Shown: positions 1,246-36,479 of the stretch, piece after piece
Numbering within the stretch: the first letter of the stretch is position 1
How the letters are laid out: each line of letters opens with the position of its first letter
Assembly: GCA_903936705.1 (NCBI GenBank)
Contig: CAIZWN010000068.1
Coordinates: 186,001-250,000, forward strand
Direction: 5' to 3'
DNA length: 64,000 nt
Source: an uncultured Myxococcales bacterium
GTDB lineage: Bacteria; Myxococcota_A; UBA9042; DTJE01
Notes under the pieces: generated by a model
Told to the model about the DNA's origin: nothing
The model's input: the letters and a program-made list of their open reading frames with translations, nothing else
Databases searched by the model: none
Translations under genes and position numbers: made by a program

Positions 1246-3405
1246 ATGGTGTTTCGTCGTTCAATGGTCTGTTGCCTGTTTGCCCTGGCCTTGCTTTCCT
1301 CCAGCGGGGTTCTGGCCCGGGCCGTGACGATCGACTTCATGTCCGGGGCTAACTCGACCGTGAAGGGCGTGTACGTCACCAAGGAATTCTGGTTCGAGTT
1401 GTCGGAGGACTGGGCGTTCCCGGACCCTGCTGTGCTGGACCTTCGTTTCACGCACACGCCGATCCTGGTGCGCCAGCTCTCGACGCTCAGCGTCCAGGTC
1501 AACGGCAGCCCGATCGAGAGCGTCTATCTGGACAACGGCAACCTGCGCAATGCCCAGCTTTCCGTCAAGATCCCGGGTCGCCTGTTGAAAGGCGGAATGA
1601 ACGTGCTGACGCTGGTCGTCAAGATGCGGTCTGATCTGAAGGACCTGTGTGACGACGTCCACAATCCTGCCCTGTGGACCCTTCTTGAAAAGGAATCCAG
1701 CCTCACGGTTCCGTACGCCGAGAAGGAGATCGTTCCCGACCTCGAGCGTTTTCCGTCCGACTATGCCAACCCGGACCTCCTGTACTCCAAGGAGAAACCG
1801 AAGATCCATGCTGTCATAGTAGTTCCGCAGGCGCCTACGCCCGCCGAGATGGACCTGATCGGGGCGCTGGCCGTGGTACTGGGGCAGGACGTGGGCCTTG
1901 GTGCGGGCGGTTTCGAGGTGATGTCGATCGACCGAGCGGACCCGACTGACCTGAAGTCGCGCCAGGTGATTCTGGCCGGTGGGATCGAGTTCATGAAGCG
2001 CATCTCTGCCGCTCCGTTCCGTGTCCCGGTGCCCCTTGATGCCCTGGCTGGCGAAGCAGGCGGGGCGCTGATGGAGTTCAAGTCGCCCTTCAATCCTTAT
2101 AGGCGGTTGCTGGTTGCAACGGGACGCGACAACGCCGCGTTGAAGCTGGTTTCGGACCATCTGAAGACGCCTGCTACCATCAGGAACCTGAAGGGGCCGT
2201 CCGTGGTTTTCGACAAGCCGCCAGTGTTCGAGACGGCTATCGAGGGCCGGCAGGATGCCGCGTTCATGGTCCGGTTGCAGGACCTGAAGATGTCCGATCT
2301 CCAGGCTCGCGGCAAGTTCTATCACTCGATCACTTTCACCATGCCTAATCCGTACGTTGGCAAGGTCAAGGACGGCGCCTTCCTGCGCGTCAGCATGAGC
2401 CACAGTGAACTGCTGCTGCCCCAGTCATCGTCGCTGCTGGTGAAGGTCAACGGCGAACCGGTCAGAAGCCTGCGTCTGACCAGGGACACCTCGCCACGCA
2501 ACACCTGGGACATCAGGATTCCCCTGGAATATCTGAACACGCGCTTCCTCACCTTCGAGATGGAATTGTTCCTGGATATCGGGGATCCCGACTGCTACTA
2601 CAATCACCCCGAGATGGCCTGGTTCACGCTGCACAACGATACGCTGCTGTACCTTCCGGTTGACTCGGCCAGCGACGAGACGCTTGCCAACTACCCGTAC
2701 ATGTTCCTGCGGTGGAATCAGTTCGACCGCCTGGGCGTCGTAATGGTGGACCCGATAACTGACGGTTCGATGTCCGCCGCCTTCAACATTATCGCCTACC
2801 TCAGCCAGAGCCTGCGATCGCCGAACTGGGTTGAACTTGTCATGACGACGGCAAAGACGCTGACGCCCGCCCAGCGATCCAGTCTCAACCTGCTTGTTAT
2901 CGGCCCCCTGGGCTCGATTCTGTCAGACCCGGCGTGGTCGACTGCAATTCCCAAGGAGCTGTCCGGGCGCGAGATCCAGGGCCGTGGAGATATCCTGAAC
3001 ACGGCAGGTTTCCTGTCGCTGCTGCGTGAGACCGACGGACGTCGGGTCCTGGCGGTTTCGGGTCGGTCCGATCCCGAGATCGGCCTTGCGGCGCCCCACC
3101 TTTTCGAGACCGGCAAGGTCGAATGGGTGCGCGGCACGCTGGCGGCGGCGACCTCCGATGACGAACTGAAGGTTCTGCTGCCGCCGCTTCTGGCGGACCC
3201 GGTTGCCAGGTTCGATCCTGCCAAGGTGAGGTTCGAGGAGAAGGGCGGCAGGATGGTGCCGGTTCTCGAAGTGCCACAGCCGGCGGCTGCGCCATCGCGC
3301 TATAACATGGCCTACTTGGTGTTCTTCATCCTCACGCCGGTCCTGGTGCTGCTGGTGATCCTGCGCCTGAGGGCACTGGCCCGAGAAGGCCGCGAGAAGG
3401 CGTGA
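1246..3405 (+). CDS. BcsB-like periplasmic polysaccharide-synthase subunit
   Basis: 719 residues. The ATG at 1246 follows an AGGGGGT Shine-Dalgarno and begins a clear signal peptide (residues 1-26, ending near VLARA); the longer upstream frame adds nothing like a leader. The body resembles the cellulose-synthase regulatory subunit BcsB: two jelly-roll-like halves in which a VQVNG / VKVNG motif is followed by a hydrophobic strand pair, near residues 85-170 and 395-480. A single membrane span near residue 690 (YLVFFILTPVLVLLVIL) and a short basic tail anchor it in the inner membrane, as in BcsB. There is no BcsA-like synthase next to it; the only glycosyltransferase is PelF. The stop overlaps the GTG of a longer reading of the next gene, consistent with an operon. 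Likely role: periplasmic guide for the nascent glycan (inference). Confidence 0.75.
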   Translation: MVFRRSMVCCLFALALLSSSGVLARAVTIDFMSGANSTVKGVYVTKEFWFELSEDWAFPDPAVLDLRFTHTPILVRQLSTLSVQVNGSPIESVYLDNGNLRNAQLSVKIPGRLLKGGMNVLTLVVKMRSDLKDLCDDVHNPALWTLLEKESSLTVPYAEKEIVPDLERFPSDYANPDLLYSKEKPKIHAVIVVPQAPTPAEMDLIGALAVVLGQDVGLGAGGFEVMSIDRADPTDLKSRQVILAGGIEFMKRISAAPFRVPVPLDALAGEAGGALMEFKSPFNPYRRLLVATGRDNAALKLVSDHLKTPATIRNLKGPSVVFDKPPVFETAIEGRQDAAFMVRLQDLKMSDLQARGKFYHSITFTMPNPYVGKVKDGAFLRVSMSHSELLLPQSSSLLVKVNGEPVRSLRLTRDTSPRNTWDIRIPLEYLNTRFLTFEMELFLDIGDPDCYYNHPEMAWFTLHNDTLLYLPVDSASDETLANYPYMFLRWNQFDRLGVVMVDPITDGSMSAAFNIIAYLSQSLRSPNWVELVMTTAKTLTPAQRSSLNLLVIGPLGSILSDPAWSTAIPKELSGREIQGRGDILNTAGFLSLLRETDGRRVLAVSGRSDPEIGLAAPHLFETGKVEWVRGTLAAATSDDELKVLLPPLLADPVARFDPAKVRFEEKGGRMVPVLEVPQPAAAPSRYNMAYLVFFILTPVLVLLVILRLRALAREGREKA

Positions 3406-3476
3406 TCGCCGTGCGGCTTGCCCGACGTCCGGATTTCGCCGGCCAGTCGGCAGGACCGTGTCGGAGGACGGAACGG

Positions 3477-5990
3477 ATGCGTGGGGCTTCCACATATCGT
3501 CCCAGTGTGGCGCGATTGATTCTGGCTGTCCTTGCTGCGACAGCGACCATGTCCATATCTTCGGGCGCCGTAGCCTTGCGCCTGGCTGACATTTCAAACC
3601 TGGTGCCTGGCGACCGTGTCGTCTGCATGTTCGACTCGTCCGAGGGCTCGACCGAGAATAAGAATCCATTGTCCGGTATCGTTGCCGAGTCGCTTGCCAG
3701 GCAGGGCTATCGGGTCGAGTGGCTTGATGTTGCAAATGGGCCCCCTGCACCAGGTATTGTTGCCGGTGCGCGCGCGGTCGTGACCGGCTTCAAGGACGGT
3801 AAAATTGGCCGCGCCAGGGATCTGGTCGAGTTCCTGCGCGAGGTCGCCAACGCAGGCGTTCGCGTTGTTGTAATCGGTGCGTTCGGCGCCTTCCAGGATT
3901 CGGACGGGGCCTTTCTGCCGGCGAATGTGGTGAACCGCTTTTTTCTTGCAATCGGTGTCAACTACGAAGCCTGGTGGACAGATGAGCCGGCGAAATTCTC
4001 GGTACGCGTCGAGGATCAGGCGCTGGGACTACCCCAGGCCGTGACTTCATCGGCCACTCGCCACTTCTACCAGTTCAGTTCGATGCGGCCGGACGTTCAC
4101 GTGCAGGTCTCCGGCCAGCGCACGGATTCTGAGCTGCCTCCGTCGGCACTTGTATTCACCAGTGCAACCGGCGCAATGGCCCTTTCTAGGTATCTTTCCG
4201 GCGACGATATGCTGGCCGATGCTCGCCAGTCGCGCCTGGACATCAATGCATTCGTCAGCGAGGCGCTTGGGCGTCGTCCTGCCGACCCGACGACCTTGCT
4301 GGTGGTTGTCGATCCGACGGTCTCCGACAGCAGACGTGCCCTGGAGTCGATCCGTCAGGCTGCATCATATTGTGGCATTCCGTTGGCCACGATGACCGTC
4401 GGGGCCGCGTCGACCCTGCGTCCAATTGACCTTGCCGCCTATGCGGGACTGGTCTTGGCGGTTCCCGAGGTACCCGCGCCGCTGGACGACTATCTTGCCG
4501 GTCTGGTGAAGGACCTGTTGTCGCGCAAGGGTCGAGCCCTGTCCGTGCTGCCAGTTCGCAACAAGCCACTGGCTGTCGTGTTCGGCCACGATGGCAGTGC
4601 CCCGCCTGTGCCATACAAGGCATCCAAGGTGCGCTTTACGGCCGCTGCGTTTCCGGGTTTGGGAGGGTTCCTGATTGACCTTCCCGAGCCCAGTCTTTCC
4701 GGCCTGCGCGCGGCCTTGCCGTCCCGCTGCACCGTGATGGTGCATGCCGTGGTGTCGGACGGTGAGGTTCCCATGTGGTGGCGTTGTCCCGTTGGCGGCG
4801 GTGAGGTTTCGGTCCTGAATGCGTATGAACTGACCGATCGGGCATCGCTGGGTTTCGTGATTCAGGCTCTTCTGGATGTCGAGGGCAGTTTCGCGATGCC
4901 GGTTCTAGACGCCGCGGTCGAATTCGTGGACGACTGTCCGCTGCCCATGACCGGCAGCGTCCTGCCTGTGCTTGGCAAGCTTGATACCACGTTCTATCGC
5001 GACGATTTCTATGGTGCCGTTCGCGACCTTGCAAAACGCCTTGGCATCAGGCCGACATTTCTTGCCGTGTTCACCTACGACGACAAGGTATCTGCGCCCT
5101 ACGGCGAGCCCTGGCCTGGGCCGACGGGAGAGGTTTCGCGGGAACTGGCCTCGCGTATTGTTGCCGATGACTTTCCTGCCGGGCTGCATGGAATGACCCA
5201 TGTGTCGCCTGGGCTGTCAGGCGGCGTCACCAGACCATTCGCCGACGAGTCTGCGCTGATGAACCAGTTGCAGGCAGCCCGACACGCTTATTCGCAGGTG
5301 TTCGGGGCCGAGAATTTTCCGATCGTCTACGTCCCACCGAACGACTGGATCGACGCGGCAGGCAAGCGCGCCCTGGTTGCGGCCGTGCCGGAGGTTCGCG
5401 TGCTGGCTTCGGTTTTTGTCGGCTCGGATGTCGAGACACAGCAGGACTTCGGTCCGGACCCGGACCAGCCCTCACTGGTGGCGCTGCCGCGGACGTGGGC
5501 TGGAATGACATTGGCTGGCGATCCGGCGATGGGTATGGTCAACGGCCTGCTGGCGCAGGTGACATCGACCCATTTCATTCATCCCGACGACGTGCTTGAC
5601 AAGGAACGCTCGGGTGGGCTTTTGTGGGCTGGCTTGCGGGATTCCTGGATTCGATCGATGGACGAAATGAGGCGGCGTTTTCCGTATCTGCGGGAAATGA
5701 CGGCCGTGCAGGCGGCGGACGAGGTCCGTCGCATGAGTGCCACCGGGCTGAAGGTAGTCGCGTCTGGTCAGGCTGGTGTCTCGATGACTCGAGCCTCAGG
5801 GATCGATGGCTCGATGATCGTGCTGGTAAGGCTGCCGGCTGGCTGCAGGGCATCCGCAGACGCCGGCGGGAAGGTGGTTCTGACGGATCCTGCCTCGGGA
5901 CGGCACCTGGTACGGATGGACCGAAGAAAACTGGTCGTGGGGTGCGAGCGCGGTTCAGCTGAGCCGACCCGTGCCCTGGCAGCGAGGTGA
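3477..5990 (+). CDS. DUF2194-type, deacetylase-like exported protein (PelA counterpart?)
   Basis: 837 residues. The ATG at 3477 has GGAGG nine bases upstream and opens a signal peptide (residues 1-35); an upstream GTG at 3402 overlaps the previous stop but gives no leader. Residues 50-450 look like Rossmann-type domains (VVIGAFGAF, LLVVVDPT). Residues 470-800 look like a carbohydrate-esterase-4-like barrel: an Asp pair in VDDCPLP (D485, D486), HGMTH giving H571-x3-H575, and a later HFIHPDD. These match the Asp/His-x3-His metal-site logic of polysaccharide deacetylases. I assign DUF2194 from recall of that family. It occupies the place of pelA, whose product has hydrolase and deacetylase domains. 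Overlap with pelD supports co-translation. Enzymatic activity is inferred. Confidence 0.7.
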   Translation: MRGASTYRPSVARLILAVLAATATMSISSGAVALRLADISNLVPGDRVVCMFDSSEGSTENKNPLSGIVAESLARQGYRVEWLDVANGPPAPGIVAGARAVVTGFKDGKIGRARDLVEFLREVANAGVRVVVIGAFGAFQDSDGAFLPANVVNRFFLAIGVNYEAWWTDEPAKFSVRVEDQALGLPQAVTSSATRHFYQFSSMRPDVHVQVSGQRTDSELPPSALVFTSATGAMALSRYLSGDDMLADARQSRLDINAFVSEALGRRPADPTTLLVVVDPTVSDSRRALESIRQAASYCGIPLATMTVGAASTLRPIDLAAYAGLVLAVPEVPAPLDDYLAGLVKDLLSRKGRALSVLPVRNKPLAVVFGHDGSAPPVPYKASKVRFTAAAFPGLGGFLIDLPEPSLSGLRAALPSRCTVMVHAVVSDGEVPMWWRCPVGGGEVSVLNAYELTDRASLGFVIQALLDVEGSFAMPVLDAAVEFVDDCPLPMTGSVLPVLGKLDTTFYRDDFYGAVRDLAKRLGIRPTFLAVFTYDDKVSAPYGEPWPGPTGEVSRELASRIVADDFPAGLHGMTHVSPGLSGGVTRPFADESALMNQLQAARHAYSQVFGAENFPIVYVPPNDWIDAAGKRALVAAVPEVRVLASVFVGSDVETQQDFGPDPDQPSLVALPRTWAGMTLAGDPAMGMVNGLLAQVTSTHFIHPDDVLDKERSGGLLWAGLRDSWIRSMDEMRRRFPYLREMTAVQAADEVRRMSATGLKVVASGQAGVSMTRASGIDGSMIVLVRLPAGCRASADAGGKVVLTDPASGRHLVRMDRRKLVVGCERGSAEPTRALAAR

Positions 5991-5992
5991 CA

Positions 5993-7432
5993 ATGACGAA
6001 GACCATTTCGGCCAACAGGTACTCCCGGCAGATCGAGAGCCTGATCGAGGCCATCCTTGGACTGGCCTTCCTGGTTGTGTTGAATGCCGCCTTCTTTCCG
6101 GACGACCCTGGCTATCTGTCGGTCAGTCCTCACCCGTTCCTGTTTCTTGTCATTCTGATTGCATCCAGGTACGGCACGTTCGACGGTTTCATCTGTGGTT
6201 TGCTGTGCGCGTCGGTCTTCGTCGGCTATCTGTTCTGGAACAAGGATCTGGCAGGGCTTAACGTCACTGCCGAGTGGAGCCAGTTCATCCCGGCTTATCT
6301 CTTCATCCTGCTGGGCCTGCTGCTGGGCGAGATTCGCGAGGTGGCCAATCGAGAGGTCTCGCGCCTTCAGGTCGAGACCGGCAGTCTCATTCGGCGAAAC
6401 GATGATGTTGTTCGCGAGAATGCCCTGCTGATGCAGGTGAAGGACGAACTGCAGCAGCGCGTGCTGTCTGCCGACGATCCCCTGTCCGAGTTCTACCAGT
6501 CGGCCCAACGGCTGCAGACGCTGCGCCCGGACGAGGCATACCCCGCGGTGATGGACCTGGTCGGGCGCTTCACTGGTGCCGAGAAATTCGCGCTGTACCA
6601 GTTGGCCGATGTGCCGTCCACCCTTGTCGGAGCCCCTGGCGGGCGCGTCTTTACCTTGCGTCAGTCGCGCGGCTGGTCTAATCCCACCGAGTTCGACGAT
6701 CGTCTTGACGAGACCCATCCTGCGGTCGCCCGGGCGGTCGAACGTCGTGAGGTTACGGTCGTCAAGGAGGCTGTTACCGACTCGTCCAAGGGGGACATCC
6801 TGGCCTGTGCTCCCATGGTGGACGCGTCCAAGGACGAGGTGATGGGCCTGATCGTAATCGAACGTATCCCGTTCATGCGCCTGACGCAGATGACAGTTAG
6901 TCACCTGTTCACGATAGCCGGCTGGGCCGGTAAGGCGTTGGCCGATGCCCGCCGTTTTGACTCGGCGATGGACGCTCGCGTGGACGACGAGACTACCGGT
7001 ACCTACAACTTCCGTTTCCTGACCCAGCGTCTGGCCGAGGAAGCTCAGAGGGTGCGACGCTATGGCGGTTCGTGCAGCTATTTGCTGGTCAACGTGGTTG
7101 ACGTCGATACGCTGGGTATCGACGAGAGGCGCCTGGTCCTGCGCGAGACCGGTTTGCTGGTTCGCAAACTGCTGCGCACGATGGACGTGGTCGGAGTGCA
7201 TCGGACCCTTGGTTCGTTCGGAATCATCCTTCCATCGACATCCAGTGTGCAGGCGTCCATAGTGACGTCCCGTGTGAACGAAAGTTTCCGGAAGGGTTTT
7301 GGTGGTTACGGTTCGCGGTTTGCCCATCTTCGCTTGCGCATGGGCATCGCATCGACCACGGGCGCCGAACCGCTGTCCGAGGCGCGCCTGATGGAAGAGG
7401 CCGAGCGTTTGGACCTGGTCCAGGGAAGATAG
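5993..7432 (+). CDS. pelD: PelD-like c-di-GMP receptor of Pel synthesis
   Basis: 479 residues. The ATG at 5993 is preceded by GAGGTGA, which includes the stop of the previous gene; a GTG at 5987 is the alternative. Order: about four membrane spans (residues 18-110), a helical, probably coiled-coil linker (about 110-160), a GAF domain (about 175-320) and a degenerate GGDEF domain (about 330-475). The GGDEF signature is replaced by LGSFG, so no cyclase activity is expected. The inhibitory-site motif RxxD is kept as R395-T-M-D398 just upstream. That is how Pseudomonas PelD binds c-di-GMP to switch on Pel polymerisation. Its position before pelE-pelF-pelG supports the call. Confidence 0.88.
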   Translation: MTKTISANRYSRQIESLIEAILGLAFLVVLNAAFFPDDPGYLSVSPHPFLFLVILIASRYGTFDGFICGLLCASVFVGYLFWNKDLAGLNVTAEWSQFIPAYLFILLGLLLGEIREVANREVSRLQVETGSLIRRNDDVVRENALLMQVKDELQQRVLSADDPLSEFYQSAQRLQTLRPDEAYPAVMDLVGRFTGAEKFALYQLADVPSTLVGAPGGRVFTLRQSRGWSNPTEFDDRLDETHPAVARAVERREVTVVKEAVTDSSKGDILACAPMVDASKDEVMGLIVIERIPFMRLTQMTVSHLFTIAGWAGKALADARRFDSAMDARVDDETTGTYNFRFLTQRLAEEAQRVRRYGGSCSYLLVNVVDVDTLGIDERRLVLRETGLLVRKLLRTMDVVGVHRTLGSFGIILPSTSSVQASIVTSRVNESFRKGFGGYGSRFAHLRLRMGIASTTGAEPLSEARLMEEAERLDLVQGR

Positions 7433-7493
7433 GTCGTCGTACGGCCGACGGATTGCGCGTTTTTGGCCGGCTGGCGTCAGGAGGTTCGAGTTC

Positions 7494-8531
7494 ATGCGGT
7501 TCCTCAGCGAGCCAGGCAGGTTTCTGGGGGTCCTTCAGGCCGTGCTGGAGATCGAGGCCTTTGTGTTTCTTTTGCATGGCTTCGGACTTCCTGCGTTCTG
7601 GCGCGTCTTTCTGCCTTTAGGTGCCCACCTGCTTGCCGTTTCGCTTGTCTCGGTCGGGCTTGTTCGTCGGTGGGATTTCAGCAAGGGCCGTGAACGTGCC
7701 TGGGCAGTGGTTGGTCTGTGCATGATGCTGCCGTTGCCGCTGCTTGGCTTCCTGGGATTCGTGATGATCTACGCGCTGGTCGAATCATCGAGCAAGCGTG
7801 GCGGCGAACTTCTGAAGGATTTCCAGGAATATATTTCGTACGACCCGGCGGTCATTCAGGGGGCCGTTCGCAGTGACGAGGATGGCGATCGCTTCCTGAT
7901 GGCCGAGGTGAACGTTTCGCCTTTGCGTGAAATACTTGCTGGCGACGACATTCCGTTGAAGCGAGGCGCCATCCTGTCGCTGTCGCGCCTGCCACGTGCC
8001 GACGCCGTCGCTTTGCTGAAACGTGCGCTGGCCGACGAGACTCGAGAAATTCGCTATTACGCCAGTACCGCCCTGTCGGACATGGAAAAGGAGTTCAACG
8101 ACAGGATCTTCCGCTTGGTGCGCGAGGTCGAGCGCAATCCGACGACCGCCGAAAGGCACGTGGATCTTGCTCGTATCGTGCTGGACTACGCTGACGCCGG
8201 CCTGCTGGACGAAGGCATGGTTCGCTATTTCCTGGAAATTGGTCTTCGCGCGCTGGACAAGGCGAAACTGATTCAGGATCGCCCTCCTCAGGTGGAGCTT
8301 TTCGAGGGGTTGCTGCTGCGCCGGTTGGGCCATCTTGAGAAGGCCGATGCTTCGCTGCAGCGATACGCAGCAGTCCGTCGCGACGACCCCGAGGTAATGG
8401 TGATTCTGGCCGAGGTCGCTTACGAACGTAAGGACATGCTGCGTGCGCGAAGCCTGGTCGCCGAGGCGATGGGGCGGTTTCCGGAGGATCACCGTTTCGA
8501 GGAACTGGCTGCCGTGCTGGGGGGCGCATGA
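7494..8531 (+). CDS. pelE: PelE-like membrane protein with helical repeats
   Basis: 345 residues, close to Pseudomonas PelE. The ATG at 7494 has CAGGAGG seven bases upstream. There are two to three membrane spans in the first 100 residues, then a soluble helical region. Residues 150-200 contain a HEAT-like pair (LKRGAILSLSRLPRADAVALL, LKRALADETREIRYYASTALS) and residues 205-340 contain TPR-like helices. The stop overlaps the pelF start by ATGA. In the known Pel system PelD, PelE, PelF and PelG form an inner-membrane synthase complex in which PelE scaffolds the glycosyltransferase. The call rests on architecture and neighbours, as PelE sequences vary widely. Confidence 0.78.
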   Translation: MRFLSEPGRFLGVLQAVLEIEAFVFLLHGFGLPAFWRVFLPLGAHLLAVSLVSVGLVRRWDFSKGRERAWAVVGLCMMLPLPLLGFLGFVMIYALVESSSKRGGELLKDFQEYISYDPAVIQGAVRSDEDGDRFLMAEVNVSPLREILAGDDIPLKRGAILSLSRLPRADAVALLKRALADETREIRYYASTALSDMEKEFNDRIFRLVREVERNPTTAERHVDLARIVLDYADAGLLDEGMVRYFLEIGLRALDKAKLIQDRPPQVELFEGLLLRRLGHLEKADASLQRYAAVRRDDPEVMVILAEVAYERKDMLRARSLVAEAMGRFPEDHRFEELAAVLGGA

Positions 8532-10015
8532 AGACCGATGTGTGCATGATCCTGGAGGGTTCGTACCCGTACGTCGTCGGGGGCGTCTCGACATGGGTCC
8601 ATGACATCCTGACCAGTCTGTCGGACGTGTCGTTCTCGCTGGTCCATATTGGTGTTTCGCGCGAGGTTGCAGACGAGCCGAAGTACGAATTGCCACCCAA
8701 CGTGCTGGACTTCCGCCAGGTTCCATTGATGGACTCCATATCCTGGCGGGGCCCTCGATTTCAGAACAAACGCGCGGCGTGGAAGGCGCTGGACAGGTTC
8801 ATCGAGGAACTGTCCGTCAACGACACGTCGGGTGTGCGCAACATTCTGGAACGCCTGGACCCAGCGCGGGCCGGTGCAATTACACCGTACGATGTGTTCC
8901 ATGGCCGTCAGTTCTGGGATTTGCTGGTGGACCGGTACGAGAAGTTTTATCCCGATTTCAGCTTCATCGATTTCTTCTGGACCCTGCGTTTCATGGCGCT
9001 GCCGCTGTTCCGCGTGGTGCATGCAGATATTCCTGAAGCCAGGTTGTATCACGCGACATGCACCGGTTACGCGGGCCTTCTGGGCGCAGTCGCGTCGCTG
9101 CGCACGGGTGCGCCAATGGTGATTACCGAACACGGCATCTATACCAACGAGCGCATGATCGAGATCACACAAGCCCACTGGATCTACCGGGAAAAATCAA
9201 CCTCGATGGTCCCGACCAAGCAGGTGGGCGCCTTGCAGTCATTGTGGATGCGGAAGTTCGAATTGCTGTCGCGCATTGCCTACGATGGCAGCGCTCGTAT
9301 CTATACCCTGTACGAGGGCAACCGCCAGTTGCAGGTTCAGGGCGGTGCAAATCCCGAGAAGACCGGCATCATTCCGAACGGCATCGATATCGAGAAGTTC
9401 GACGGTCTGTCACTGTCACACCAGGACAAGCGCCGTGGCCCGCCGCGCGTCTGCATGGTTGGGCGCGTGGCGCCCATCAAGGACGTAAAGACGTTCATCC
9501 GCGCGGCAAAGATGATCAGCGAGGAGATGCCCGAGGTGCGCTTCCAGGTGCTTGGTGGTCGCGACGAGGACGAATCGTACCTCGACGAGTGCGAGCGGTT
9601 GGTGCGTGTCCTGTCGCTGAAGAGCGTCTTCGAGTTCACTGGCGCCGTGGACATGAAGGAATACTACCCGGGGATGTCGGCCCTTGTTCTGACCAGCATC
9701 AGCGAGGCGCAACCGTTCGTTCTGCTTGAGGCAATGCGTATCGGCATCCCGGTGGTTGCCAGCAGCGTCGGGGCCTGCGCGGAACTGGTGTTCGGTGCTG
9801 GTCCCGATGACGAGGCAATTGGTCCTGCCGGTTTCATCACCAACGTGCGATCTCCGCGCGAGACGGCCGACGCGGTCCTGTCCATTCTGCGAAATCCGGA
9901 TCGGGCCAACGCAATGGGAGCCGCCGGTCGCGAACGGGTAGGCCGATACTACGTCAGGCGCAACATGCTTGATTCTTATCGTGAAGTGTACCGGCAGTTC
10001 TGCGGAGGCTCCTGA
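8528..10015 (+). CDS. pelF: PelF glycosyltransferase
   Basis: 495 residues. The start overlaps pelE by ATGA. This is a GT-B fold, family GT4-type enzyme. The N terminus has the PelF signature ILEGSYPYVVGGVSTWVHDI (residues 8-27). The C-terminal half has VGRVAPIKDVKTFIRA and the E-x7-E retaining-transferase motif in SEAQPFVLLEA, followed by GIPVVAS. In Pel systems it polymerises amino sugars from a UDP-activated donor on the cytosolic face, under c-di-GMP control through PelD. No signal peptide, as expected. It is the only glycosyltransferase in the operon. Confidence 0.95.
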   Translation: MKTDVCMILEGSYPYVVGGVSTWVHDILTSLSDVSFSLVHIGVSREVADEPKYELPPNVLDFRQVPLMDSISWRGPRFQNKRAAWKALDRFIEELSVNDTSGVRNILERLDPARAGAITPYDVFHGRQFWDLLVDRYEKFYPDFSFIDFFWTLRFMALPLFRVVHADIPEARLYHATCTGYAGLLGAVASLRTGAPMVITEHGIYTNERMIEITQAHWIYREKSTSMVPTKQVGALQSLWMRKFELLSRIAYDGSARIYTLYEGNRQLQVQGGANPEKTGIIPNGIDIEKFDGLSLSHQDKRRGPPRVCMVGRVAPIKDVKTFIRAAKMISEEMPEVRFQVLGGRDEDESYLDECERLVRVLSLKSVFEFTGAVDMKEYYPGMSALVLTSISEAQPFVLLEAMRIGIPVVASSVGACAELVFGAGPDDEAIGPAGFITNVRSPRETADAVLSILRNPDRANAMGAAGRERVGRYYVRRNMLDSYREVYRQFCGGS

Positions 10016-11385
10016 TGGCGGGCATAGGATTCAGACTGCGCGAGATGGCGCAACGCAAGACGTTTGCCGAGTGGCTGAAACTGTACACCTACTCGGCGGT
10101 CATTTTCTCGGGTCCATGGTTGATTTCGATTCTCGGTCTTGCTGCGCTTTCGATCTTCGCCATGCCGTCGATGCAGGATCGGGACGTTCGCGTTTTTACC
10201 GTCACGATAGTCTACATCTACTGCTTCAGCCTGATAACAACCGGGTTGCTTCAGTTGGTTGCGACGCGATATGTGTCCGACCAGTTCTACCTGCGCAATC
10301 CTGATGCCGTGGTTCCGACATTCGTCGGGGTTCTGGTGGTAACCATCCTGGTGCAGACGGTCACCGGGGCCATTGCGTTGTACTTTGCCGACCTGTCCTT
10401 CCTCTACAAAATGACTGCGCTTGGCCTGTATGTTTCGGTGTCCGTCATCTGGGTGGACATGCTGTTCCTTTCCGCCACGAAGGACTACGCGAACATAGTG
10501 ATCGCGTTTGCGCTGGGCTATCTGACGTCGTTTCTTTTGTCGCAACTGCTGTCGGTATTCTTCGGGCTGGACGGGCTTGCCATTGGCTTCCTGATCGGCC
10601 AGGTGCTGCTGATGTCGCTGCTGATGCATCGAGTGTTCGCCGAGTACCACTTCGGCGAGGGATTCAGTTTCGAATTCCTGACGTATTTCAAGCGGTTCCC
10701 GGCCTTGGCGATCTCGGGTTGCGCCTACAACACGGCGATCTGGATCGACAAGATTCTGTTCTGGTATTCGGACACCGGTGTCCCGATCCACTCGTATTTC
10801 AGGACGCATTTTCCTTACGACTCGGCGATGTTCATCGCCTACGTGACGATCCTGCCGACGCTTGCAATCTTCCTGCTGCGAATCGAGACGGACTTCTACC
10901 TGCGCTATAAGAACTACTACGGCACGATCCTGCAGAAGGCGCCGCTGGCGCTGATCCTGCAGCGCAAGGCCGAGATGATGGGCGTGCTGCGTCAGGCGTT
11001 GAAGGCAGTCTTGATCTGGCAGGGGGTTGTCACGATGGGCAGCTTCCTGCTGATGCCTTTCCTGGTGTCGCTGATGGGCATCGATCCGGCTGACACGCCA
11101 GTGTTCAGGGTGGCGACAATCGGCTCGTTCTTTCACGGCGGCCTTTTGATCCTGCTTATTCTCGTCCTGTACTTCGATTTCCGGGGCTCGGCGGTCATTT
11201 TGTCGCTGCTGTTCCTGGTTTTGAACGTGGTTCTGACGTTGATCTCGCTGCGTCTTGGGCCGGCGTTCTATGGTTTCGGGTACACGCTGGCCTGCGCCAT
11301 CACTTTGGCCGTCGGGTTCTTCATCTTCAACAATCGCATAAAGAACCTGGAGTACCTGACATTCATGCGCCAACCGGTGGGTTGA
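10015..11385 (+). CDS. pelG: PelG polytopic transporter-like subunit
   Basis: 456 residues, the size of Pseudomonas PelG. The start overlaps the pelF stop (TGATG). It begins with the family hallmark MAGIGFRLREM followed by a span with SGPW (about residues 18-42). About twelve hydrophobic segments cover the protein, in line with the MOP/Wzx-like flippase superfamily. In the known system it works with PelD, PelE and PelF in the inner-membrane synthase complex. It is the last gene of the operon. The next gene is convergent and ends 21 bp away. Confidence 0.95.
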   Translation: MAGIGFRLREMAQRKTFAEWLKLYTYSAVIFSGPWLISILGLAALSIFAMPSMQDRDVRVFTVTIVYIYCFSLITTGLLQLVATRYVSDQFYLRNPDAVVPTFVGVLVVTILVQTVTGAIALYFADLSFLYKMTALGLYVSVSVIWVDMLFLSATKDYANIVIAFALGYLTSFLLSQLLSVFFGLDGLAIGFLIGQVLLMSLLMHRVFAEYHFGEGFSFEFLTYFKRFPALAISGCAYNTAIWIDKILFWYSDTGVPIHSYFRTHFPYDSAMFIAYVTILPTLAIFLLRIETDFYLRYKNYYGTILQKAPLALILQRKAEMMGVLRQALKAVLIWQGVVTMGSFLLMPFLVSLMGIDPADTPVFRVATIGSFFHGGLLILLILVLYFDFRGSAVILSLLFLVLNVVLTLISLRLGPAFYGFGYTLACAITLAVGFFIFNNRIKNLEYLTFMRQPVG

Positions 11386-34414: not shown

Positions 34415-36181
34415 ATGAATATGCCGCAAGGTGTGGGCGGAGGTCTGCAGACCGGCCCTGGGGCCAATCTGCTGGGCCGGGTCCTCGATGGCCGATTCGT
34501 GATCAAGTCCATTCTAGGAACTGGCGGCATGGGCACCGTATATCGTGCCGAGCAGACCAGCATGCGTCGCGATGTGGCGGTGAAGGTCGTGCGGCGCGAC
34601 ATTCTGGATGAAGGTTCGGTGCGTCGATTTCTGATCGAGGCACAGGCTGCCAGTCGCCTGAAAAGTCCACATACCGTGACGGTTTTCGAGTTCGGCCGGA
34701 CTTCCGACGACATATTGTACCTGGCTATGGAACTGTTGGTGGGCAAGACGCTGGCGCAGGTGCTGAAGGAGGAGGGGAAACCCTTCGGAGTCATACGTGC
34801 CGTGCGGATCATCAACCAGGTGCTCAACTCCATGGAGGAGGCCCACGGTCTTGGCATTCTGCATCGGGACCTGAAGCCGGAAAATATCTTTCTGTTGGAC
34901 GTAGCGGGCTCGCAGGATTTTCTGAAGGTTCTGGATTTCGGTGTCGCCAAGATGGTAGGCGATTCCGAGCACGGGACCACGGTCGGAGGCGTCTCGTTCG
35001 GGACGCCGGTCTACATGAGCCCGGAACATATGATGAACCGGAAGTTGGGTCCCACGACGGACCTGTATTCCGTCGCGATCATGCTGTTTGAGATGCTGGC
35101 CGGGAAACCGCCGTTGGACGAATTGTCCCCGGTCGAGAACGCCATGCGGAAGGCATCGGGAAAGTTTCCGTCTTTGCGGCAGTTGAATCCCGAGACCGAA
35201 ACCGTGCCCGAACTGGACTCGTTCCTGGCCCGGGCCCTGGAATCTGATCCCGCGAACCGCCCGCCCGACATCAATGCCTTCCGTAACGAATTCAACCGGG
35301 TGGTCCATTCCATGATTTTCGGGGGCAACGGAATCTCGTCGGGCATGCTCACGCCGCCGCCTTTCCCGGCCGTCTCGATTCCTCTGCCGGTTCGCGAGAG
35401 TCCGGACCAGACTCTCGTCATGCCGCAGCCTAACCTGGCTTCCCCTGCGCAACCGGTGGTGCAAACGAATGAGGCGGCGAATCCGCAGCCGCCGTTGTCG
35501 TATCGTGGCAGGCCCATTTCCCCGCCTATCCGGCTGGCTCCCGTTGACGAACACGAGGAGCTGGAGGAGCAACCGGATCCAGTTCAGCCGCCGCCGACCC
35601 CGCCCAGGCGAGCGGCACCAGTCGAGGAGCGCCCTAACCCTCCGACTGCGGCGCCGCGGGTCATGCAGGTACGGATTGCTCCAGTTCAGGAGGTTGTAAC
35701 GCCTGCTGCCCCGCCCACCAGGCTGAGGCCGAAACGGAATTCGGACAGCCGGTTGAGCCCGCGGGTGCCCCGTCTGCGCAGCATCGTGTGCCTGGCCGGG
35801 GTGATGCATCACAAGGCACTTCTGGCCGAGGTCAGCGAGTCCGGAGCCTTCGTTAATTCTAATTGGCTGCCTCGTCCGGGTGATAAGCTGAGCATCATGT
35901 TCCCCCGTTCTGACGGCAGCCCCGGTCCGTCCATCATCATCGGTGCCCGCGTGGTGCGTGTCATTGACAAGGCATTGGATGCCGGCCAGGTGCGCGGCTT
36001 TTCCGTGAAATGGCTGGTTCTGCGTACGCAGGGCCGCTTGGCGGCCCTGCAGTCCTTCTACAAGGATCTGTTCGACCTCGACCTTCCGGGAGACGACACC
36101 CACGAGGAGGCCCGCCTCTGGGAGTACTGGTTCGAGGACAAAATGTTGCAACGGAACGTCACCCGGTGCTCGGGGGTCTGA
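34415..36181 (+). CDS. Ser/Thr protein kinase with C-terminal PilZ-like domain
   Basis: 588 residues. The ATG at 34415 has GGAGAG 12 bases upstream; a second in-frame ATG at 34421 is possible. The kinase domain (about 25-300) is complete: Gly-rich loop GTGGMG (35-40), AVK Lys57, HRD 150-152 with Asn157, DFG 174-176, SPE 202-204. A 150-residue Pro-rich linker follows, with no membrane span. The last 130 residues resemble PilZ: RLSPR fits the RxxxR motif, and EVSESG about 25 residues later is a near match to D/NxSxxG. If it binds c-di-GMP, the protein would link c-di-GMP to phosphorylation. Eukaryote-like kinases of this sort are abundant in Myxococcota. Confidence 0.85.
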   Translation: MNMPQGVGGGLQTGPGANLLGRVLDGRFVIKSILGTGGMGTVYRAEQTSMRRDVAVKVVRRDILDEGSVRRFLIEAQAASRLKSPHTVTVFEFGRTSDDILYLAMELLVGKTLAQVLKEEGKPFGVIRAVRIINQVLNSMEEAHGLGILHRDLKPENIFLLDVAGSQDFLKVLDFGVAKMVGDSEHGTTVGGVSFGTPVYMSPEHMMNRKLGPTTDLYSVAIMLFEMLAGKPPLDELSPVENAMRKASGKFPSLRQLNPETETVPELDSFLARALESDPANRPPDINAFRNEFNRVVHSMIFGGNGISSGMLTPPPFPAVSIPLPVRESPDQTLVMPQPNLASPAQPVVQTNEAANPQPPLSYRGRPISPPIRLAPVDEHEELEEQPDPVQPPPTPPRRAAPVEERPNPPTAAPRVMQVRIAPVQEVVTPAAPPTRLRPKRNSDSRLSPRVPRLRSIVCLAGVMHHKALLAEVSESGAFVNSNWLPRPGDKLSIMFPRSDGSPGPSIIIGARVVRVIDKALDAGQVRGFSVKWLVLRTQGRLAALQSFYKDLFDLDLPGDDTHEEARLWEYWFEDKMLQRNVTRCSGV

Positions 36182-36339: not shown

Positions 36340-36422
36340 GCCGGGGTGGCGAAATGGTAGACGCAGGGGACTTAAAATCCCCCGATCGTAAGGTCATGAG
36401 GGTTCGAGTCCCTCCCTCGGCA
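36340..36422 (+). tRNA. tRNA-Leu (anticodon UAA)
   Basis: 83 nt. The acceptor GCCGGGG pairs with CCTCGGC (one G-U), with discriminator A at 36422. The anticodon loop CTTAAAA (36371-36377) gives anticodon TAA (36373-36375). A long variable arm (class II tRNA) and the T-arm GAGGG-TTCGAGT-CCCTC are present. CCA is not encoded (CTG follows). Confidence 0.96.
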
Positions 36423-36479
36423 CTGATTGATATTATTGGATTATGTGTCGCGTTCGCATGGTAAAAGTCCCGTCGTAAC

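Follow-up and report, generated by a model that had tools for sequence, protein, structure and literature searches.

The window analysed here, taken as the whole stretch of 64,000 nucleotides, carries a gene in which a Hanks-type Ser/Thr kinase domain is joined through a proline-rich linker to a PilZ domain. The gene, its parts and the neighbouring tRNA gene are as follows.

34415..36181, plus strand: kinase-PilZ gene; ATG start, 588 amino acids, a single uninterrupted frame by ORF reading
34499..35263, plus strand: Hanks-type Ser/Thr kinase domain, residues 29-283 (PF00069, E 6.7e-45, over the cut-off)
35282..35728, plus strand: Pro-rich linker of about 149 residues, 23% Pro
35750..36031, plus strand: PilZ domain, residues 446-539 (PF07238; structure model and its matches)
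35750..35764, plus strand: RxxxR motif, R446-L-S-P-R450
35828..35845, plus strand: second motif EVSESG, residues 472-477, ExSxxG compared with the usual D/NxSxxG
36032..36178, plus strand: C-terminal extension with LWEYWFED, about 50 residues after the barrel
36340-36423: tRNA-Leu (TAA anticodon), between the kinase-PilZ gene and proBA-like genes

The window protein is denoted P0001 in our alignments and tree. Its kinase domain has a Gly loop GTGGMGTVY at residues 35-43, K57 within VAVKV, HRDLKPEN starting at H150 (with D152), DFG starting at D174, and SPE at 202-204. By fold and residues it is a Hanks-type kinase, and phosphorylation of Ser/Thr is predicted from the sequence. The ends of the linker were set at fixed offsets from DFG and from RxxxR. 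No transmembrane segment was found in the window protein, in which the highest hydropathy over 19 residues was 1.28. The first-pass annotation had placed at 34415-36181 a full kinase core (HRD, DFG, SPE), a Pro-rich linker after it, and a PilZ-like domain with RxxxR and a near-match EVSESG. Each of these was recovered: the frame is exact, with 588 codons from its ATG, all catalytic residues are present together with the Pfam Pkinase match at 29-283, the linker has the length and Pro content listed above, and the two motifs lie at R446-R450 and E472-G477. The PF07238 profile search that it had proposed for the C-terminal domain gave 28.2 bits (E 2.5e-6) on the full-length protein against a curated cut-off of 22.5, and 32.2 bits when the domain was scanned by itself. 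The NCBIfam scan and the C-terminal part gave nothing informative, and no PilZ entry was returned when PDB sequences were searched using either the domain or an 18-row profile.

Residues 440-549 were modelled with AlphaFold from two sequences, trimmed so as to leave out the C-terminal tail. The best trimmed model has a mean pLDDT of 69.7 and the other four lie between 42.6 and 46.5; with one good model among five, we therefore treat the PilZ model as usable and not as strong. It shows six strands and a C-terminal helix, that is, a six-stranded barrel. In a Foldseek search of the PDB, the top 33 rows for this model were PilZ proteins or PilZ-containing complexes, led by MotI/DgrA (1.1e-3), BcsA, Alg44 with c-di-GMP and YcgR with c-di-GMP, none of which reaches E 0.001. 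The entries 1ywu, 5y4r, 5y6h and 8u0i among the top rows we take to be PilZ entries. A longer model including the C-terminal tail (mean pLDDT 40.3) was excluded from the fold claim; its top seven PDB rows were also PilZ entries, none at E<=0.001. The absence of a PilZ fold, which the first-pass annotation had named as evidence against its reading, was not observed, since the model matches PilZ structures best. Structural alignment with VIA-align gave Z values of 12.3 for c-di-GMP-saturated BcsA, 10.8 for VCA0042 and 10.4 for PA0012, and lower values of 7.7 for tetrameric XCC6012 (3rqa), 6.5 for XC1028 (3dsg, trivial binding) and 6.0 for FimX-bound PilZ (4fou). XCC6012 is stated, in the excerpts covered of PMC11800159, not to bind c-di-GMP. 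The model thus appears nearer to the binding type of PilZ structure, and likeness of fold by itself proves no function.

We searched 52 related genomes with the C-terminal part of the protein and then read the ORFs at the matches. Proteins with the order kinase, linker, PilZ were found 21 times, the window protein included, in 11 of the 13 searched genomes of its family (f1). The own genome of the window (assembly of 4.85 Mb) has three copies, namely the window's, L051 and L052; G001 has four, G002 three, G004, G005 and G011 two each, and G006-G010 one each. Among the 13 f1 genomes no kinase-PilZ protein was found in G003 or in G012, the latter being 68% complete. A search of genome contigs for named relatives gave one, L050, from contig CAINDP010000146.1 (uncultured Myxococcales), which we treated as a G002 copy; viral contigs gave no close relatives. 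Nine of the 21 proteins (the window's, L050-L053, L059, L066, L068 and L072) were scanned whole against Pfam, and in all nine both domains were over the cut-off. Alignment A2 comprises 18 of the 21 kinase-first proteins, with L058, L062 and L063 left out, and a PilZ match at E<=0.01 was obtained for 17 of its 18 domains, including the window's own. A profile built from A2 was then used on 282 genomes of the phylum, where A2 members match by construction. All 21 proteins were found at E<=1.6e-32, together with a stand-alone PilZ protein of f1 (G012, 289-aa frame, 5.9e-35), and the next match after these was at 4.7e-21.

The kinase motifs are kept in this set: all 21 kinase-first proteins have DFG, SPE and the Asp of HRD type, the last within HGD in L068 and within HKD in L072. 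The linker varies from 33 to 330 residues (median 98), and the hydropathy peak is at most 1.80 in all 21. The C-terminal extension has a common element WE(Y/F/W).F in 12 of the 21 relatives, the window's included; judged by eye, the extension of the window protein may be part of a larger PilZ subtype.

As to the surroundings of the gene, a MerR-like gene lies upstream in divergent orientation, and downstream, after the tRNA-Leu, there follow genes coding for amino-acid-kinase/PUA and for aldehyde-dehydrogenase domains, read by us as proB and proA. The kinase-PilZ gene apparently stands alone. Eight window neighbours were compared with loci of 8-16 kb from 15 relatives, and no match at E<=1e-8 was obtained; the kinase-PilZ protein, as control, matched 15/15 loci. 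The sole neighbour match below 0.01 was the lipoprotein-like ORF at 39424 in L063 (E 0.003). As the neighbours are not conserved across the relatives' loci, no operon-based function was drawn.

Column counts come from the full set of 21 PilZ domains aligned over 114 columns, in which the mean frequency of the top residue is 0.50. Eight columns are invariant (R446, R450, G477, P486, V513, R515, G528 and F529), and three of these eight, R446, R450 and G477, belong to the motifs. At position 472 there are 14 proteins with D, five with E and two with N; at 474, 18 have S and three have G, so that the second motif has the form (D/N/E)xSxxG in 18/21 and DxGxxG in 3/21. Position 472 follows the first Arg by 26 residues in 20/21 and by 27 in L050. 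The sister copies in the own genome have DLSESG (L051) and DVGVGG (L052). The position before RxxxR is Ser (S445) in the window protein alone and Arg in the other 20 of 21. The first-pass annotation had held that the inexact second motif makes binding uncertain. The motif is indeed ExSxxG, with Ser and Gly of the (D/N)xSxxG rule kept and Asp replaced by Glu, but the concern is milder than it had seemed, given that Glu occurs in 5/21 and that both Arg and the Gly never vary. Glu-472 is found in P0001, L050, L053, L059 and L061, the last two being a pair. In the tree these proteins lie on either side of L051, L054 and L057, which have Asp, and Glu was therefore either gained twice or reverted once. 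The term ExSxxG was not found in the three best-ranked literature matches. Excerpts of the sources report that replacement of R111 in MrkH almost abolished binding (PMC5055493) and that replacement of both RxxxR Arg in a Leptospira PilZ protein abolished it (PMC11800159).

We built a maximum-likelihood tree from 55 kinase domains, namely those of the 21 kinase-first proteins, 13 proteins with PilZ in front (see below) and 21 further kinases of the own genome. The own genome has 39 kinase matches, 30 of them with loci, and three of the 39 are joined to PilZ; the 27 other loci were tried for the tree and six were dropped as short or unmatched to the motif pattern. Rows L182 and L200 are identical, and there are long branches among the own-genome rows. 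The 21 kinase-first domains form one clade (100/96), found in 100% of 200 bootstrap trees. Two own-genome kinases without PilZ, L179 and L180, adjoin this clade with weak support (88/16). L179 has a hydropathy of 2.47, a clear membrane peak. As a separate observation by eye, the C-terminal part of another own-genome kinase, L194 (G000:C5:159367-160134), looks like a hemerythrin domain.

The phylum search also led to proteins with the opposite order of domains. We examined 20 long-frame regions, 18 of them outside f1, which were picked among the matches listed and are not a survey. PilZ lies ahead of the kinase in 10 of these 20, and in three of 39 fetched regions (L089 unread), giving at least 13 proteins at the following places.

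L069, 6849-9443, plus strand: PilZ-first kinase
L070, 5670-9422, minus strand: PilZ-first kinase
L080, 5852-7978, minus strand: PilZ-first kinase
L128-L136 and L138: PilZ-first kinases

All 13 come from family f6, which belongs to the same class as f1. Both domains were over the Pfam cut-off in 11 of the 13; in L132 and L134 only the kinase was, and PilZ was recognised by the A2 profile. Like the kinase-first proteins, they have a PilZ domain with RxxxR and a Hanks kinase in one chain, whereas their domain order is opposite and their kinases form a clade of their own (99/99), found in 100% of 200 bootstrap trees. Their second motif is NxGxxG in seven, NxSxxG in four, DxGxxG in one and SxSxxG in one. 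Since the two orders lie in separate kinase clades, the sequences are most simply explained by at least two origins of the kinase-PilZ fusion.

The architecture itself is already known from Pkn1 (MXAN_1467) of Myxococcus xanthus. According to excerpts of PMC8316039 and PMC8844925, loss of Pkn1 reduces sporulation, its gene is induced in development, and its PilZ domain is without the conserved motifs. Compared by description and not by sequence, Pkn1 resembles the window protein in having a kinase followed by a C-terminal PilZ domain. It differs in that the f1 proteins keep RxxxR in 21/21, with (D/N/E)xSxxG in 18 and DxGxxG in three, whereas its own PilZ is stated, in what the sources give, to be motif-less. 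In G172 and G195, two genomes of 10-11 Mb from another family and not known to be Myxococcus, no Pkn1-like fusion was recognised in the 30 of 47 PilZ matches that were read, in stretches with 1500 bases on each side, so that long frames are partly cut and L145 and L159 lie at a contig edge. Among the matches listed for these two genomes, the kinase matches extend over the kinase and linker of the query and no further. Besides Pkn1, no Ser/Thr kinase with PilZ was found among the literature matches listed, where subscription journals were mostly outside coverage, and the word PilZ is absent from the main text of a kinome classification (PMC2877116). Other M. xanthus proteins share parts of the arrangement. 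PixB and PixA have PilZ joined to a signalling or enzymatic domain and bind c-di-GMP in vitro, but have an acetyltransferase or receiver domain in place of the kinase (excerpts of PMC8316039). The histidine kinase SgmT likewise has a c-di-GMP input and a phosphoryl output (PMC3509222, in part), but works by His-Asp phosphotransfer and binds through GGDEF and not PilZ (PMC8844925, in part). Judged by the literature searched, the new elements are a clade in which RxxxR and most of the second motif are retained, the distribution of this clade over the family, and an independent fusion in reverse order.

Profile searches of the own genome gave 16 GGDEF matches, 19 PilZ matches and 15 HD_5 matches, 13 of the last over the cut-off, and no EAL match at E<=0.001. 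With no EAL and 13 HD_5 over the cut-off, breakdown of c-di-GMP would rest on HD-GYP-type enzymes. The Asp in the GHxxGD element marks enzymes that make c-di-GMP, and enzymes making cGAMP have Ser at this place. Fifteen of the GGDEF stretches were fetched and 13 were readable; all 13 have GHxxGD and, within the stretch read, 12 show GG(D/E)EF; because the Asp is kept in these 13, 3',3'-cGAMP is thought less likely as the signal. The sixteenth GGDEF match, at 5987-7432, scores 23.4 bits in a protein scan, slightly below the cut-off; it lies in the window itself, within a polysaccharide region.

3402-5990: DUF2194 protein, 862 amino acids (E 5.7e-57), its end overlapping the start of the PelD-like gene
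5987-11385: pel-type exopolysaccharide locus, with a GAF plus degenerate GGDEF protein, a TPR/HEAT protein, PelF and PelG

PelF (479.9 bits, cut-off 100) and PelG (444.8 bits, cut-off 29) both lie downstream of the GAF-GGDEF gene. From place and features, we read the membrane GAF plus degenerate GGDEF protein as PelD-like and the TPR/HEAT protein as PelE-like; the DUF2194 protein is possibly a polysaccharide deacetylase or hydrolase of the locus. The PelD-like protein also has an RTMD, resembling an RxxD site. The GGDEF, HD_5 and PilZ matches and the pel-type locus make it very likely, on genome content, that c-di-GMP is made and used in the source organism.

We lean slightly towards the reading that the window protein is a cytosolic Ser/Thr kinase reading c-di-GMP; it is a motif-bearing form of the known architecture and probably responds to c-di-GMP. 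The c-di-GMP would be bound by the RxxxR arm and the loop of the second motif. The ligand would then probably act by changing the pairing of PilZ domains or their docking target, and less through a rigid interface of the two domains; with linkers ranging from 33 to 330 residues across relatives, such an interface would be hard to maintain and pairing or docking is favoured. Pairing of PilZ domains could bring kinase domains together for trans-phosphorylation, or docking could bring the kinase to its substrates. As L179 with its membrane peak is placed next to a kinase-first clade without one, we infer that a cytosolic sensor displaced an outer one: the PilZ module probably replaced the membrane and external portions of a receptor kinase of more ordinary type. 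The weak side of the c-di-GMP reading lies in the ExSxxG form, the lost Arg before RxxxR, one good model in five, the absence of an EAL match and the unconserved neighbours.

The alternative that survives best is that PilZ acts as a nucleotide-independent docking module that places the kinase on a partner, c-di-GMP playing no part; we regard it as unlikely but deserving of serious weight. PilZ proteins of the type IV pilus, PA2960 and XAC1133, are described in excerpts of PMC11800159 as making protein contacts without binding the ligand, and PlpA, in the part of its source covered, keeps the motifs and shows no c-di-GMP binding. According to the excerpts the Pkn1 PilZ is motif-less, and yet normal sporulation depends on Pkn1, so that a PilZ joined to a kinase may function in the absence of ligand. 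The Glu in the second motif and the lost Arg of the window protein would fit the same explanation. However, the two RxxxR Arg and the Gly do not vary in any of the 21 while the rest of the PilZ domain drifts, and the c-di-GMP-binding PilZ structures gave Z values of about 8 to 12 against 7.7, 6.5 and 6.0 for XCC6012, XC1028 and 4fou, which argues against docking alone.

It is rather improbable, in our judgement, that the family binds c-di-GMP while the window copy is drifting (S445, E472) and has become a receptor of weak or single-molecule binding, high in threshold or dead, beside two sister copies. P0001 is alone among the 21 in having Ser and not Arg before RxxxR, and the two other kinase-PilZ genes of its own genome (L051, L052) have D-type motifs. 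The residue before RxxxR is said, in work of Ko et al. from 2010, to decide between the one-molecule and the paired mode of c-di-GMP binding. Both modes are described in excerpts of PMC5055493, with an intercalated c-di-GMP pair in MrkH and PP4397 and one molecule in VCA0042. Against drift, Glu is also present in L050 and L053, from two other genomes of the genus, and in L059 and L061, from another genus of the family; being common to relatives in two genera, it points to an inherited state and not to decay. In addition, R446, R450, S474 and G477 are intact. Finally, a chance PilZ-like motif or misannotation of two genes as one is very improbable in spite of the modest PilZ score of 28.2 bits, as the frame is uninterrupted, the same fusion occurs in 21 proteins of 11 assemblies and the model has a PilZ fold; the reading of two adjacent genes as one was rejected on the uninterrupted frame and the recurrence in relatives.

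Returning to the c-di-GMP reading, c-di-GMP controls histidine kinases, other enzymes and transcription factors, and CckA and ShkA are histidine kinases that bind it. A Hanks Ser/Thr kinase switched directly by c-di-GMP would link two large bacterial signalling systems and, if true, would be a bacterial counterpart of the eukaryotic cyclic-nucleotide-dependent kinases. The wider proposal is that two or more fusions, with the domains in opposite orders, took place within a single class of relatives of the myxobacteria, giving families of c-di-GMP-gated Ser/Thr kinases with direct second-messenger control of Hanks-type phosphorylation; here we find the balance to be even. As the PilZ of Pkn1 is stated to be motif-less, the question of gating by c-di-GMP could hardly be put there. 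In the present family RxxxR is kept throughout, the proteins look soluble, a genome may have as many as four paralogues (G001) and the domains could be expressed one by one, which makes the question directly testable, and the reverse-order f6 family would offer an independent second case.

A minor observation, made by eye, concerns other PilZ proteins met in the searches. L086 (6213-7364, plus strand), L074 (2969-3877, minus strand) and L065 (6175-7107, plus strand) each have a PilZ, a (W/F).Y.FP stretch and a second PilZ-like part, and this stretch somewhat resembles the one after the kinase-linked PilZ.
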